Assembly (NCBI RefSeq): GCF_002079305.1
Contig: NZ_CP015039.1
Location: 951,501-1,015,500 of the forward strand
Length of the DNA stretch: 64,000 bases
DNA from: Rhodovulum sp. P5
Lineage (GTDB): Bacteria; Pseudomonadota; Alphaproteobacteria; Rhodobacterales; Rhodobacteraceae
Direction: 5' to 3'
Below are positions 6,490 to 20,793 of this stretch, piece after piece. Each line of letters opens with the position of its first letter. Positions within the stretch are counted from its first letter, which is position 1. The position numbers were made by a program, and so were the translations under genes. The notes beneath the pieces were generated by a model. The model ran no database searches and was not told the origin of the DNA. It saw only the letters and a list, made by a program, of their open reading frames with translations.

Positions 6490-7188
6490 ATGAAAATCGT
6501 ATCTCTAATTCGCGTCAGCACCACGAAACAACAGCGCAGCGGCCTTGGCCTTGAAGCGCAACAAGCGACGATCAAGGCATATGCCGCCGCTAACGCGGCC
6601 AACGTTATTGCCGAATATGTAGAGGTAGAATCGGGCCGGAAGGTGGACCGTGAAGAACGCGACAAGGCGTTGCGGCACGCTCGTGTCACCGGGGCGAAAC
6701 TGGTCATCGCCAAGTTGGACAGATTGGGTAGGAACGCTGCATTTCTTATGACTTTGAAAGAGTCCGGTGCCGATTTCGTCGCGCTAGACATTCCGAATGC
6801 CAACACCATGACTGTGGGCATGATGGCGGTCATGGCACAGGCTGAGGCAGAAGCGATCAGCGAGCGCACCAAAGCCGCCATGGCAGCCGCCAAGGCCCGT
6901 GGCCAGACCTTCGGCAATCCCAACGGCGCAGCCGCGCTCCACGCCGCAGGCAAGGGCAATACTGACGCGGTGCGGGCGATCAAAGGCAAGGCTGACGCCT
7001 TTGCCGCCGATCTATCCGACACGCTGGCAGATGTGCACGCCGCAGGCCACATCACGTTGAAGGCTCAAGCTCAGGAACTTAACCGCAGGGGTATCAAGAC
7101 CGCCCGTGGGGGGCGTTGGCATCCGTCCAGCGTGGCGAATCTGCGGAACCGGCTGGAAGGCCACCAGAGCCACGCTGGACCCCTCTGA
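6490..7188 (+). CDS. Serine recombinase (resolvase/invertase family)
   Basis: The 232-residue protein has the resolvase N-terminal catalytic domain (about residues 1-140): nucleophile serine in RVSTTKQ (Ser10), the KLDRLGRN motif, and an MAQAEAEAISERTKAAMAAAKARG stretch corresponding to the long E helix. The C-terminal part (LKAQAQELNRRGIKTARGGRWHPSSVANLRNRL) resembles the start of the recombinase DNA-binding domain found in larger serine integrases, here in a short version. It catalyses site-specific strand exchange through a phosphoserine link, probably resolving multimers or moving the element. It is a single-gene unit with the palindrome at 6447-6466 in its leader. Confidence 0.9.
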   Translation: MKIVSLIRVSTTKQQRSGLGLEAQQATIKAYAAANAANVIAEYVEVESGRKVDREERDKALRHARVTGAKLVIAKLDRLGRNAAFLMTLKESGADFVALDIPNANTMTVGMMAVMAQAEAEAISERTKAAMAAAKARGQTFGNPNGAAALHAAGKGNTDAVRAIKGKADAFAADLSDTLADVHAAGHITLKAQAQELNRRGIKTARGGRWHPSSVANLRNRLEGHQSHAGPL

Positions 7189-7933: not shown

Positions 7934-8311
7934 ATGGCGCAAATTGAGGCCCGGCACAAAACGCCAGTTCCGTTCCTCACCCAATATGCATCGGAGCGGT
8001 CGCTGTCCCCCGAAATCCAAGGGTATTACTCCCATGAAACGGCAATGTGGGTTGTGAAATCAGGCAGTGTTGAAACCCCTCTGATCGACCACGCGAAGGA
8101 AACCGTCGAACTGGTCACGAAGACCATGGTTGAGCGAGAAACTGACGACGAAGAAAGCGCTTTTTCCTCGGCGGAATTGGCGACCAAGACTCGCACCCAA
8201 TCTGAACAAGATGACGCGAGCGCCTTTGTTGGTCTTGAAATGGCGACGAAAACCGAAGCGCAACTGGAACACGATGATACCTCGCCCGAGGTTACAGGGC
8301 TATTTCTGTAG
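7934..8311 (+). CDS. Graspetide-type precursor peptide
   Basis: A 125-residue protein with a leader-like first half containing PVPFLTQYASERSL (residues 11-24) and a repetitive second half. Three repeats of E-[LM]-[VA]-TKT-x4-E-x-DD lie at residues 59-72, 81-94 and 102-115, spaced 22 and 21 residues. Thr/Lys followed by Glu/Asp-Asp clusters in tandem is the hallmark of omega-ester or omega-amide linked peptides (graspetides such as microviridins, plesiocin and thuringinin), where an ATP-grasp ligase joins Thr/Ser/Lys side chains to acidic ones. The next gene, overlapping by one base, is such a ligase. SD is AGAGGCAAG. No Cys or signal peptide. The exact ring pattern is unknown. Confidence 0.75.
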   Translation: MAQIEARHKTPVPFLTQYASERSLSPEIQGYYSHETAMWVVKSGSVETPLIDHAKETVELVTKTMVERETDDEESAFSSAELATKTRTQSEQDDASAFVGLEMATKTEAQLEHDDTSPEVTGLFL

Positions 8312-9276
8312 TGGAGCGCCACCATCCCTACTTGATAGTCACGAATAAAAGGGACCTGACCTCCGATTTCATCGTTCGAGAAATCCGCAACCGGGGTCTG
8401 CCGTTCCACCGCCTAAATACCGAAGACGTTGCACAGTTGTTGTTCACCCAACGCCTTGGCGACGCAACCACTCTATGCAACGGTGACACCCAGATAAAAT
8501 TGGACACCGTCCGCGCGGCCTATTTTCGAAGGCCCCTTCCCCCAGAAGTGAAACCGGATGGTTTGTCGCATTCTTCCGTCACCTATATCCGCGAAGAATG
8601 GAGCTACTTGCTTCGCTCGCTGTATCTGGAACTCGGTGAGAAGTGGTTCAATCATCCAAACAGCGTCATACTAGCAGAAGACAAACCCCGTCAACTCCGG
8701 CTTGCGCAAGAGGTTGGTTTCACGGTGCCCGAAACCGTTATTACGAACGAATTGGATTCAGTAGAGCGGCTTTTTTCTGACGGTGACGTCATCGCCAAAC
8801 CGATGAAGCAATCCTTGCTGGAAGACCCTAGCGGCCCCGGAAGCGTGATCTACACTACCACCATCCACTCTATCGAAGAAATCGACCCAACGAACCTCCG
8901 CGTGGCCCCGGTGATCTTCCAACGGAGAATAGACAAGCGGTTTGATTTGCGTGTGACCGTTGTGGAAACAAGGGTATTCGCCGTTGCGATCAACTCCCAA
9001 AAGTTTGCGAAGACGGAAACGGACTGGCGGCACAGCTCAGTCACGGAGCTTGAACACGAGGTCTTTGAACTCCCCGAGGAAGTAGCCAAGCAATGCGTGG
9101 AAGTTGTCCGTCGATTGAATCTTCGATATGGCGCGATTGATCTTGTGTTGGATGCATCGGGCGCGTTTTGGTTCTTGGAATGCAATCCAAATGGTCAATG
9201 GGCTTGGATCGAAAATCGAACGGGCTTGCCGATTGCAGCCGCAATTGTGACCGCAATGGAGAACATATCGAAGTGA
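8311..9276 (+). CDS. ATP-grasp graspetide macrocyclase (MvdC/MvdD-like)
   Basis: The 321-residue protein shows the layout of microviridin-type ATP-grasp ligases: an N-terminal domain (residues 1-100, reading like YLIVTNKRDLTSDFIVREI), a central ATP-grasp domain, and the C-terminal hallmark FLECNPNGQWAWIE at about residues 287-300, very close to the EvNPnGQW signature of this family. These enzymes activate Asp/Glu side chains of a precursor peptide by phosphorylation and couple them to Thr/Ser/Lys. It starts at GTG 8311, sharing one base with the precursor stop, so translation is probably coupled. It is 1 base from the precursor and overlaps the membrane-protein gene by four bases. Family call is strong; substrate call rests on context. 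Confidence 0.85.
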   Translation: MERHHPYLIVTNKRDLTSDFIVREIRNRGLPFHRLNTEDVAQLLFTQRLGDATTLCNGDTQIKLDTVRAAYFRRPLPPEVKPDGLSHSSVTYIREEWSYLLRSLYLELGEKWFNHPNSVILAEDKPRQLRLAQEVGFTVPETVITNELDSVERLFSDGDVIAKPMKQSLLEDPSGPGSVIYTTTIHSIEEIDPTNLRVAPVIFQRRIDKRFDLRVTVVETRVFAVAINSQKFAKTETDWRHSSVTELEHEVFELPEEVAKQCVEVVRRLNLRYGAIDLVLDASGAFWFLECNPNGQWAWIENRTGLPIAAAIVTAMENISK

Positions 9277-9899
9277 AGATTCTCGATTTCATATGGCCCC
9301 ACGTTGGCAAAGTGCCGCCTGACGAAACCCTGACAGGCGAGCTTGAAAGCATCGCGGCAGCGTCATGGGGAGAGAACACCGCTACGTTCCTAGATGAAGC
9401 ACGACGGTTGCGTGACGTTGAAACGGGGCGAAAGAATGCAGTCGAAACCAAAAGCCAAATCTACCTTGCGGCATTGCTGGCGCTTATACCTATTTTGGTT
9501 TCCTTGACTGAAAACGCCACCCTGAAAGGCATCATGGCCTTTGATACGTGGTATAGGATCGTCGGCTTCGTCCTTTTCATTTTGGGGCTCGCGTACGGGA
9601 TTGGTGCCTTTGTATCGTCTTTTCGTGCGTTGACGGTTCGCGCCTTCCACCGCGTTGATGTAGGTGAAATCGTCAATTCTGGGACCCGCGAGGACCCCCT
9701 TGCGGACCTGACAAAGGAAATCCTGAAATCGGTCCGGCAAGATCGGCAGAACGTTAACCACAAGGTCAGCTATGTGATCGTTACACACCAACTTCTTTTC
9801 AGAATGGCGCTATTGTTACTTTTGGCCTTGGGCTTGATCACGTTCGCATCCCCTGCCAGCGACTTGTTTGAGGCCGTGAAATCGGCTCTTTGCGGTTAG
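9273..9899 (+). CDS. Three-helix membrane protein of the graspetide cluster
   Basis: A 208-residue protein starting at GTG 9273 inside the macrocyclase stop (GTGA overlap). Residues 1-60 are cytoplasm-like with a charged helix (EARRLRDVETGRKNAVETK), followed by transmembrane segments at about 61-79, 94-116 and 174-192 and a soluble loop of roughly 55 residues between the last two. It has no ABC, protease or MFS motifs, so it is not an obvious exporter. Its coupling to the cluster suggests a role as receptor, immunity protein, effector or export helper for the modified peptide; the sequence does not decide. Confidence 0.65.
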   Translation: MKILDFIWPHVGKVPPDETLTGELESIAAASWGENTATFLDEARRLRDVETGRKNAVETKSQIYLAALLALIPILVSLTENATLKGIMAFDTWYRIVGFVLFILGLAYGIGAFVSSFRALTVRAFHRVDVGEIVNSGTREDPLADLTKEILKSVRQDRQNVNHKVSYVIVTHQLLFRMALLLLLALGLITFASPASDLFEAVKSALCG

Positions 9900-9916: not shown

Positions 9917-10381
9917 TCATCGCCAAGCCTTCGACAGGACACCATGGAACCGCATGAGGGAGTCGAAAGTGCGCGGCACCACGTATTTGTAGGCGGGCAC
10001 ATTATATCGGCGCTTAATGATGGCAGCGAAGCGGTTGGCGAGGTCCGGCAGATCATCAAGATTGTCGGGCGTCACGTCGATTTCAACGGTGTAGTTGAGG
10101 CCGGATTCCTGTTCTTCGATCTCATGTTCGGCATACCACTGCGAAACCGCATCGCTCTGAGGCACGCCGCCGATCAGGCTCAAGTGAACCACGTCCGCTT
10201 CCTCGACAAAAGCGAACATCTGGCAGAACCACAGGAATAACTGCCCGCGTGCATCGTAATCACCACGCCCACGGTCATCCACTATGAACGGGGCATCGTT
10301 TTCAAGCTTCTTGTATCGCCTATCGGCAAAACCGTCGAAGGCGTCGAAAAGCAGGCCCTTTAGCTCAAGTTTGGTGGCCAC
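9917..10381 (-). CDS. Hypothetical protein
   Basis: A 154-residue acidic protein beginning at GTG 10381 with GAGGG about six bases upstream. It has a mixed alpha/beta look (LFDAFDGFADRRY near the start, a YTVEIDVTPDNLDDLPDLANRFAAIIKRRY stretch) and no signal peptide. No family is recognised. It follows a second unknown gene by 15 bases on the same strand, and the pair is convergent with the graspetide cluster, so it is not part of that operon. Confidence 0.55.
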   Translation of the reverse strand: MATKLELKGLLFDAFDGFADRRYKKLENDAPFIVDDRGRGDYDARGQLFLWFCQMFAFVEEADVVHLSLIGGVPQSDAVSQWYAEHEIEEQESGLNYTVEIDVTPDNLDDLPDLANRFAAIIKRRYNVPAYKYVVPRTFDSLMRFHGVLSKAWR

Positions 10382-10396
10382 TTTTTGCCCTCACCA

Positions 10397-10795
10397 TCAT
10401 GGCCTCTTGTTAAATCGGTCTGCGGCGTCCTTAATCCGCTTGCGCTCTTTCCGCTCAACCGCTTTTGCATTCGCCTCGTCGTCGCGCGCTTTCGCGGCAA
10501 GTGTCCTCTGTCTTTCGTTCACTTCGCCAGTGATCTTTTCAAGTTCAGTCACCAGCCCATCGTCAAGTTCGTCAAGGTGGCAATGGACGACGAGGCCGTC
10601 ACCTTGAACCAATGCCCGGCGTTTCTGCATGTAAAAGTGCTGCGCCCACGTCTCGTTGAAGTCGCTCGCCCAAGCCGCCGTCGGCTGCGGGGACAAGGAG
10701 AGGAAGACATAGTGCAACGCCGACTGTTCGTCCTTGCGGGTCCGATCCGTATCCATTCCGGTGATTTTAATGGGCTCATACTGCGCGATGCTCAT
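10397..10795 (-). CDS. Hypothetical protein with charged C-terminal helix
   Basis: A 132-residue protein. Residues 28-75 look globular (HYVFLSLSPQPTAAWASDFNETWAQHFY), and residues 80-130 form a long Lys/Glu/Arg-rich helix likely to be coiled coil. It is the first gene of a two-gene left-pointing operon. I do not recognise it; there is no catalytic signature. Confidence 0.55.
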   Translation of the reverse strand: MSIAQYEPIKITGMDTDRTRKDEQSALHYVFLSLSPQPTAAWASDFNETWAQHFYMQKRRALVQGDGLVVHCHLDELDDGLVTELEKITGEVNERQRTLAAKARDDEANAKAVERKERKRIKDAADRFNKRP

Positions 10796-11560: not shown

Positions 11561-11683
11561 TAAGTCACCCGTTTATGTGCCAAAAGGTCGAAAAACGCCG
11601 AATGAATCAGCACATTGGCTGTCAAGCGGAATATTTTCGCGTAGCTAAACTTCCGCCAAGTCCTTGACTGGAAATGGAAAAAT

Positions 11684-11758
11684 TGGCTCCGGCGGTAGGG
11701 ATCGAACCTACGACCAATTGATTAACAGTCAACTGCTCTACCACTGAGCTACGCCGGA
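11684..11758 (-). tRNA. tRNA-Asn (GTT)
   Basis: Reading the minus strand, the acceptor TCCGGCG pairs with CGCCGGA, the D arm is AGCTCAGTGGTAGAGC, the anticodon loop CTGTTAA gives GUU, and the T arm contains GGTTCGATCC. CCA is encoded. The 3' end faces the accessory DNA on the left. Confidence 0.95.
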
Positions 11759-14259: not shown

Positions 14260-14335
14260 GGGCGATTAGCTCAGTTGGTAGAGCGCCTCGTTTACACCGA
14301 GGATGTCGGGAGTTCGAGTCTCTCATCGCCCACCA
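14260..14335 (+). tRNA. tRNA-Val (TAC), host of the 6.4-kb island
   Basis: Acceptor GGGCGAT pairs with ATCGCCC, D arm AGCTCAGTTGGTAGAGC, anticodon loop TTTACAC (UAC), T arm GGGAGTTCGAGTCTCTC, CCA encoded. The 3' 28 bases are duplicated at 20765-20793. Confidence 0.95.
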
Positions 14336-14336
14336 T
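14308..14336. repeat. attL: tRNA-Val 3' end, 29-bp core
   Basis: The sequence from the T arm of tRNA-Val through CCAT is identical to 20765-20793. The integrase gene begins 80 bases further, the standard layout of an integrated element that keeps the tRNA intact. Confidence 0.9.
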
Positions 14337-14416: not shown

Positions 14417-16024
14417 ATGGGATGGAATATGCCGAGTCCGGTCTTGATCGGGTCAACCTACTACTTGCGGGTTCATGTCCCGCGGGCTGTTGCTGACAAG
14501 GCGAAGGGGACGCGTGTCACTCTTCCCGTAGGAGAAATTCACAAGACGGTTCAGGTAGGCGGTGCGGTCAAGGTGTCGCTCAGCACCAAAGACCCGGCGG
14601 AAGCCAAGCGCCGGTTCGTTCAAGCCTTCGCTGCCGTTGAGCGTCACTGGCAGGCCCTCCGCCAAGATCATCTGACAGCGCTTAGCTTCAAGCAATGTGT
14701 GGCCCTCGCGGGGGAAATCCGCGCCGACTTCATCAAGATATTCGACGAGGAACCCGGGAGCCCCGAGACATGGCAGCGCGTCCGTCTCCTGAACAAGGAA
14801 GCCCAAGAAGCCACCCAGTCGCCGTTTGCGCGGCTGATGATCCGGCCTGATAGGGACACCGGCAATCGACCGGCCCTTGAGCTTCGGTTTGGTGGCTTTG
14901 TGGATACTGTTTTAGGCCGACATGGTCTCGTTATAGACGACGAGTCCCGGGGAAAACTCCTTCAACGGATAGCCGCTGAGATGGACGATGCCGCCCGCAT
15001 CAACTTTCAGAAGGCCCGGGGGGACTATGGGGAAACAGGACTGACCAAGCCGTTTCCCAAGTTCCAGCCGCCCGAGGCTGCGGAAGGCCCCCAGCGGGAT
15101 GCGCCTGCCAAACTCACGTTTGAAAGCGTAATCAGCGAAGAAGTCCACCGCAGGACCATGGGCAGGGATGCGAAGCCGCTGCCACCCAACACCGAAAAGA
15201 AGTTCCGCCGGGTCGCTAGGGAGTTCGCGAAGCATCGGAAAAGTGATCTTGTCGAGACGGTCACGGCAAGGGAGGCGAACGACTGGATGCGAAAAATGCA
15301 GGAAGTTGGGGAACTGTCCAACCGGACCATTGCTCAGCGCATCCAAAACCTAAAGACGCTGATCGAATGGGCACGGGGACAGGCGCTGGGCGACGTATTC
15401 CCCTCAGGGAACCCCCTAGATGTCCTCAAGGCACCCAAGGGTGCCCCTGTGCCCCTTGGGGAGCGCACGCTCCGCATTGAGGAAGCGCGGGCAATCCTGA
15501 GGGCCGCACGGGGGGAGGCCAAGCCGGAACTGCGCTGGCTGCCGTGGCTGATGGCCTATTCGGGGGCGCGAGTGAACGAGGTTGCCCAGCTTAGGGCCGA
15601 TGATTTCTTTCAGGTCGGAAATGATTGGTTCTACCGCCTGACGACAAAGGGCGGTCGGAAGTTGAAGAACCAACACAGCGCCCGGCGTGTCCCCGTCCAT
15701 CCCGACCTGATCGCAGAAGGTCTTCTGGCCTTCACCGGTGCAGCGAAAGCGGGGGAACGGCTGTTCCCCGAGCGCTCACAGGCGAACCTTCGGGACTGGG
15801 TGCGAAAGTCAGTGGGCCTGAAACGCGAAGCGCTGGCCCCGAACCATGGATGGAGGCACCTGTTCGAGGACATGGCCCTAACCGCTCAGATGCAGGAAGC
15901 GGCGAAACGCTACATCACGGGGAGGGCATCGCGCGGTTCCGACGATGACTACGGCAAGAGCGACGCCATGCTGCCTGCGTTGGCGGTCGAGATGCGAAAG
16001 CTGCCGCCCTTCCTTGAGGGGTAG
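14417..16024 (+). CDS. Tyrosine-type site-specific integrase
   Basis: The 535-residue protein has an N-terminal module (YYLRVHVPRAVADKA, like the DUF6538-type start of many alphaproteobacterial integrases), a SAM-like core-binding region around 240-345 and the catalytic domain: Arg385 in YSGARVNE, the K/H strand with HSARRVPVHP, His477-x-x-Arg480 in NHGWRHLF, and nucleophile Tyr512 in DDDYGKS. It cuts and joins att sites, here the tRNA-Val 3' end, to integrate or excise the island. ATG 14417 is used; ATG 14429 is an alternative that removes four residues. All catalytic residues are present, so it is probably active. Confidence 0.95.
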   Translation: MGWNMPSPVLIGSTYYLRVHVPRAVADKAKGTRVTLPVGEIHKTVQVGGAVKVSLSTKDPAEAKRRFVQAFAAVERHWQALRQDHLTALSFKQCVALAGEIRADFIKIFDEEPGSPETWQRVRLLNKEAQEATQSPFARLMIRPDRDTGNRPALELRFGGFVDTVLGRHGLVIDDESRGKLLQRIAAEMDDAARINFQKARGDYGETGLTKPFPKFQPPEAAEGPQRDAPAKLTFESVISEEVHRRTMGRDAKPLPPNTEKKFRRVAREFAKHRKSDLVETVTAREANDWMRKMQEVGELSNRTIAQRIQNLKTLIEWARGQALGDVFPSGNPLDVLKAPKGAPVPLGERTLRIEEARAILRAARGEAKPELRWLPWLMAYSGARVNEVAQLRADDFFQVGNDWFYRLTTKGGRKLKNQHSARRVPVHPDLIAEGLLAFTGAAKAGERLFPERSQANLRDWVRKSVGLKREALAPNHGWRHLFEDMALTAQMQEAAKRYITGRASRGSDDDYGKSDAMLPALAVEMRKLPPFLEG

Positions 16025-20764: not shown

Positions 20765-20793
20765 GGGAGTTCGAGTCTCTCATCGCCCACCAT
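20765..20793. repeat. attR: 29-bp copy of the tRNA-Val 3' end
   Basis: Identical to 14308-14336. The bases after it (CCGACCTAG) belong to the backbone leading to the repair genes. No other part of a tRNA is present here, so it is an attachment remnant, not a second tRNA gene. Confidence 0.9.

Follow-up and report, generated by a model that had tools for sequence, protein, structure and literature searches.

A graspetide precursor, an ATP-grasp ligase and a three-helix membrane protein form a recurring trio on mobile elements

In a 64,000-nucleotide stretch of the genome of Rhodovulum sp. P5 (NZ_CP015039.1, positions 951,501 to 1,015,500, hereafter the window), three consecutive genes on the forward strand overlap each other and look like one translationally coupled operon. 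The first (7934..8311) encodes a graspetide precursor of 125 amino acids (aa), the second (8311..9276) an ATP-grasp graspetide synthetase of 321 aa, and the third (9273..9899) a membrane partner of 208 aa with three predicted helices; the last two genes start with GTG. The precursor ends with TAG, the final base of which is the first base of the ligase start, an overlap of 1 nt, and between the ligase stop and the GTG of the membrane gene the overlap is 4 nt. A longer open reading frame (ORF) for the third gene, from a TTG at 9168, was rejected because it starts inside the ligase, and the GTG at 9273 agrees with the relatives. An initial annotation of the window had proposed these three overlapping genes, and all were found as placed. 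It had missed that the membrane gene is conserved as the third gene of a trio that recurs: when the DNA is read, the three genes are adjacent and in the same order in each of the 15 distinct main-branch loci examined.

The precursor was identified by its ORF, a 29-row alignment and a motif count with shuffled sequences. The leader contains PFLTQYAS and GYYS..AMWVV and is followed by three ELxTKTx4ExDD repeats, all on the forward strand: TKTMVERETDD (8117..8149, residues 62-72) and TKTRTQSEQDD (8183..8215, residues 84-94), placed by motif positions, and TKTEAQLEHDD (8246..8278, residues 105-115), placed by the alignment as well. The peptide had been called repeat-containing, and indeed the strict form TKTx4ExDD is present in three copies, while none of 2000 shuffles of the precursor held even one. 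The search gave 29 proteins, 28 of which were aligned with the window's precursor, the remaining one being the window's own shorter copy. Three strict copies are present in 26 of the 29 rows and two in the other 3. Repeats one and three keep T-K-T, E and D-D unchanged in all rows, and repeat two is more variable. Outside this set the number of strict copies differs, with four in a Pseudomonas plasmid (L006) and two in L025. The precursors of L007, L008 and L012 have degenerate copies, and that of L027 has no matching copy, only the divergent stretch SKTMAWPGDDD. In L004 the frame is broken by a stop after the first repeat (upstream of L004 2404), and in L013 the annotated 37-aa ORF is part of a longer one of 106 aa, which has three repeats, two of them strict. 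A small ORF adjoining the ligase, with a repeated core of Thr/Lys and Glu/Asp and a PFLxxYA that fits the graspetide leader motif P-h-h-x(1,2)-h (PMC8939145), is what is expected of a graspetide precursor.

The ligase contains LECNPNGQWAW, and thereby the ECNPNGQW signature given in the initial annotation. The top match in NCBIfam is TIGR04187 (E 1.2e-79, 267.8 bits over residues 8-315, below the curated 350), followed by MvdC (190.7 of 425 bits) and MvdD (158 of 475 bits), with RimK far lower. The earlier description of the enzyme as MvdC/MvdD-type is thus right in the broad sense, but the curated cut-offs of both families are missed. A profile of 26 ligase relatives matches the PDB entries 7m4s, 5ig8, 5ig9, 7mgv and 9bou over their full length (E 1e-60 to 1e-43), and the solved ligases matched in this way are AMdnB, two microviridin-type ligases, CdnC and 9bou. 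Judged by this full-length homology, over the pre-ATP-grasp and ATP-grasp parts, membership of the graspetide synthetase family is confirmed at the level of sequence. The ligase scores with the peptide-modifying graspetide enzymes. A function in ribosomal modification of the RimK kind was rejected, since the RimK scores are far below those of the graspetide families.

The third gene product was already described as a three-helix membrane protein, and hydropathy agrees, with regions near residues 61-79, 86-117 and 174-192. The AlphaFold model is all-helical with a mean predicted local distance difference test score (pLDDT) of 82, and an IWP motif is found in the N-terminal part. The database search gave 49 relatives. 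A hidden Markov model (HMM) of 47 close members detects the third gene of ten diverged loci (L004-L008, L012, L013 and L024-L026) with E values, for 16 sequences, from 4e-57 to 3e-12, and h[WFL]P occurs within the first 60 residues in 44 of the 47 members, h[WF]P in all ten diverged loci. By these profile matches the membrane proteins of the main-branch trios are one family, the weakest being that of L027 (E 0.018 at first and 2e-5 in the second round). One homologue, P0157 from Paracoccus sp. AK26, is located on a 2.8-Mb contig, a length that matches the contig of no ligase listed, and is possibly a solo copy.

Scans of Pfam and NCBIfam gave nothing above cut-off for the membrane protein. It does, faintly, resemble PycTM. 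PF18967 (PycTM) gave no match at E up to 1 for the window's protein, so that the curated cut-off is missed; the database-precomputed PF18967 assignments on 5 of the 49 relatives were not reproduced when those five were rescanned at E up to 0.1. In PADLOC the PycTM models lead, at E up to 0.01, with PDLC02365 matching 23, PDLC02364 14 and PDLC02363 5 of the 47 members, and the best E value across the three is 2.4e-6 (0.0035 for the window's protein). Five other PADLOC models match one member each, and two of the five are labelled 2TM effector. Among the diverged members, PycTM models match L006 (3e-5), L005 (9.8e-5) and L008 (0.036), while L007 matches only AbiZ (0.015) and L004, L012 and L013 match no PADLOC model. 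Aligned by hhalign with four PycTM proteins that were fetched by PF18967, the family scored 25.85, with a probability of only 8%, as compared to a maximum of 24.62 in 400 locally shuffled controls. Single PycTM proteins scored 18.7 (one) and 10.8-13.4 (three), and five stray multi-helix ORFs 10.3-17.2. The membrane partner also spaces its helices as three PycTM proteins do, with a close pair, then a gap, and the third helix near the end. We regard the likeness, seen in profiles and helix spacing, as a faint lead and not as membership. One relative, P0161, is named SLATT by a source, but no SLATT match was found in the NCBIfam and Pfam scans of the membrane proteins, and one SLATT_5 protein scored at background in hhalign.

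The 15 main-branch loci are the window, L002 (Pseudogemmobacter), L003 (Phyllobacteriaceae), L004 with its interrupted precursor, the plasmids L005 (Sinorhizobium), L006 (Pseudomonas), L007 (Croceicoccus) and L008 (Agrobacterium), the faecal phage contig L012, the Leptospira phage L013 (L028 is the same sequence), the IMG/VR contigs L024-L027, and L038. Four of them, L002-L004 and L038 (27% identity), were reached by searches with the membrane protein alone. The trio is carried by the Leptospira phage (L013/L028) and also by the related viral contig L026. Contigs of equal length suggest the same linkage: by this measure, of the 40 best ligases (from 120 listed and 889 found) 31 share a contig with a membrane relative, 31 of the 49 membrane relatives share one with a listed ligase, and 14 of the 29 precursors share one with both. 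The prevalence is low and patchy. With the window's own genome included in each count, the ligase is found in 2 of 385 genomes of the class (E 1e-50) and 1 of 394 of the family, and the membrane gene in 2 of 385 of the class and 2 of 196 of the order.

This conservation points to a membrane partner or effector. The recurrence on plasmids, on phages and on an island that carries defence genes suggests a peptide in control of some weapon or alarm in the membrane. The reading we favour, tentatively and at a little less than even chances, is that the trio is a mobile module for conflict or maintenance, in which a multi-core graspetide in the cytosol controls a membrane effector of its own, probably by restraint.

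Loci on other branches of the ligase tree bear on another possibility, that the membrane protein is a biosynthetic scaffold which brings the ligase to the membrane, and that the peptide has a different target. Eight such loci (L020, L021, L022, L029, L030, L031, L033 and L034), of Streptomyces-like, Herpetosiphon and Burkholderia branches, have no membrane partner, as judged by eye for L020 and by hydropathy of the downstream ORFs for the other seven; L032 ends at the ligase. The absence of the partner from the loci examined there argues against a scaffold, and other ligases of this fold work without such a membrane protein. Graspetide synthetases that depend on partner proteins do exist (PMC13097080), and a membrane scaffold for microviridin is named in the title of a reference, but we consider a scaffold quite improbable. 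The annotated Streptomyces tgmB of L021 forms one group with L029 and L031-L034 (100/99); downstream, L021 has an annotated methyltransferase, and L029, L031 and L034 a similar ORF by eye. Microviridins are represented by solved ligase sequences, not by a locus. In a ligase tree with PDB references, the ligases labelled trio fall on one side of a branch (93/80), with the labels of P0082 and P0120 unsupported. In a corrected tree, from which the PDB rows were left out and to which L005 and the Burkholderia ligase L020 were added (L030 is not included), the pattern of membrane partners still needs one change, but the support is only 74/15. The nine-row clade of the window's ligase is firmly supported (100/99).

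The trio of the window is located on an element of about 16.8 kb, integrated at tRNA-Asn as the initial annotation had proposed. Both copies of the 46-bp attachment (att) repeat were found, with 44 positions identical, the right one (11683..11728) at the 3' end of tRNA-Asn(gtt) (11684..11758, reverse strand), which is the integration target, and the left one outside the window at C1:946471-946516 of the genome. A gene for a PF00589 tyrosine integrase lies 70 bp inside the left copy. The duplicated tRNA 3' end together with an integrase beside one end makes the element a tRNA-integrated island. It also carries genes for a C5 methylase, Vsr and EcoRII, left of the window (L036:16624-19550). No pyrimidine cyclase was found among the three genes or the element ORFs that were scanned, which were not all of those on the element.

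Neighbours of the trio were scanned as one set of 79 of 103 picked ORFs and 4 from L036. AbiEi and AbiEii were found in two members each, and two further DNA-methylase matches (PF02086 and PF01555) could not be assigned to a locus. The L012 trio is flanked by genes for AbiJ and the Eco29kI endonuclease. In all, at least 2 of the 14 main-branch loci with scanned neighbours (L013 is covered by its copy L028, and L038 is not among the 14) have defence genes assigned to them, which is a raw count. The L024 trio abuts P2-like tail genes, gpU (PF06995, 5.8e-31) and a gpD-like match just below cut-off. P2-like phages carry defence hotspots, but at a different position than this trio (PMC9122126). A role in competition, defence or element maintenance is suggested by this context. 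The anatomy of the trio would be the same if it were a toxin-antitoxin-like addiction module, with the graspetide neutralising a membrane toxin solely to keep the element and not for phage defence, and the carriage on plasmids, viral contigs and the tRNA-Asn element would fit this as well. Addiction and defence are not separable from sequence. For addiction alone, the upkeep of three conserved genes, one of them for a ligase that consumes ATP, would be a high price, and we hold this explanation to be improbable.

The composition of the operon bears on the main rival, that the trio makes an exported or antagonistic graspetide, a bacteriocin or protease inhibitor, with the membrane protein as exporter or immunity protein and with host proteases cutting the leader. 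Bacteriocins are often found on mobile elements, which speaks for this explanation, and Makarova et al. 2022 (PMC8939145) consider the uncharacterised membrane protein of thuringinin loci (cluster 18) a likely transporter of the peptide; cluster 40 of the same paper holds another membrane protein of unclear role. Contrary to this, no ATP-binding cassette (ABC) transporter, C39 peptidase or leader protease is found among the three genes, and the window's precursor has no GG pair, the search being for plain GG and not for looser variants. Furthermore, a 208-aa three-helix protein without an ATPase would be an unusual exporter, and the faint profile likeness is to effectors. Export or immunity appears rather unlikely. 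The trio had also been called a complete biosynthetic unit; the precursor and ligase are indeed conserved together, but the operon holds no protease or transporter.

For control of a membrane effector, the ligase would spend ATP on joining the side chains of Thr/Lys and Glu/Asp inside each TKTx4ExDD, with up to three links per repeat, which would give one long peptide with three stapled cores. Graspetides are defined by omega-ester or amide cross-links, each of which removes 18 Da. With neither transporter nor leader protease in the operon, the modified peptide would probably stay in the cytosol and act on the co-encoded three-helix protein in the inner membrane, assuming that the long helices of the latter face the cytosol. 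Constitutive restraint is likelier than activation, as the genes overlap and none is sensor-like. Most likely, in our view, the modified multi-repeat peptide keeps the membrane protein, as an oligomer, in an inactive state; when the cell is infected or the element is lost, the peptide would be lowered or removed, and a membrane-damaging effector freed. That tandem repeats could engage an oligomer is the argument made for DRT10, in which a SLATT membrane protein is proposed to be controlled by a repetitive cDNA (PMC12632851). A narrower claim, that the trio represents a new anti-phage class in which a ribosomal multi-repeat peptide, stapled by an ATP-grasp enzyme, acts inside the cell as signal or plug for a membrane effector of the pore type, is possible but doubtful; the stapled peptide would take the place held by cyclic nucleotides in Pycsar, CBASS and Panoptes.

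The trio shares with graspetide clusters of the TIGR04187 subfamily, kin of MvdC-MvdD, a precursor beside an ATP-grasp ligase, the P-h-h-x-h leader and core repeats rich in Thr/Lys and Glu/Asp. It differs from them by the tandem TKTx4ExDD, the recurring three-helix membrane partner and an operon without methyltransferase, transporter or peptidase. Several core repeats behind one leader are also found in multi-core graspetides, such as plesiocin and thuringinin, and in cluster 13 of Makarova and groups 34 and 35 of Carter; these groups were compared by their general description, and one of these numbered groups may be the trio itself. PMC8939145 lists two families of uncharacterised membrane proteins from ATP-grasp loci, and new groups with repeats and unmatched proteins are mentioned in PMC13097080; either may already contain the trio without interpretation. 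With Pycsar the trio has in common a small membrane protein in which two helices lie close together in the N-terminal part and the third near the end, and the faint profile similarity, but it has no pyrimidine cyclase, the ligand would be a peptide and the curated PycTM cut-off is not reached. In DRT10 (reverse transcriptase, noncoding RNA and SLATT) a repetitive polymer is likewise made beside a membrane protein predicted to be pore-forming, but the trio has a peptide and not cDNA, no reverse transcriptase, and no SLATT homology was detected. The model of a constitutive ligand that restrains a membrane effector is shared with Panoptes (OptS-OptE; PMC12657218), in which the ligand is a cyclic dinucleotide and the proteins are unlike those of the trio.

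For most graspetides no biological role is known. In the titles and abstract openings of the papers listed no link of graspetides to a membrane effector or to defence was found. The trio of precursor, ligase and membrane protein gives graspetides a directly testable role, the control, within the cell, of a membrane protein. If the membrane protein is an effector, ribosomally synthesized and post-translationally modified peptides (RiPPs) would take a place beside cyclic nucleotides and cDNA among the signals of bacterial immunity. Further trios can be mined for by tandem TKTx4ExDD, then a ligase with NPNGQWAWIE, then a three-helix protein with an N-terminal h-WP.

L018, L019 and L023, on plasmids of Rhizobium, Martelella and Agrobacterium, are diverged three-gene sets of a third kind, with precursors of 62-63 aa ending in ETGEDQKG/Q (short-precursor core ..KKNDLETGEDQKG), a multi-helix protein and a ligase with about 33% identity. 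The membrane proteins of L018 and L023 show no detectable relation to the main family (100 of 150 shuffles reach the same score or more), and the three loci were for this reason not counted among the 15. All three are beside genes annotated as AbiE, ABC-three-component or SIR2, and the layout is possibly a parallel system. The membrane gene of L019 (L019:3421-4105) is annotated as two pieces and is a near copy of the one-piece gene of L018. In the window, a serine recombinase or resolvase gene on the same element (6490..7188, forward strand; PF00239, 2.4e-26) precedes the trio and is not counted as part of it, and two genes downstream on the opposite strand (9917-10795) have no family match above cut-off. 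A second small island is located beside the tRNA-Asn element, flanked by a 29-bp repeat of a tRNA-Val 3' end (14308-14336 and 20765-20793), and its ORF at 14417-16024 is integrase-like by eye.
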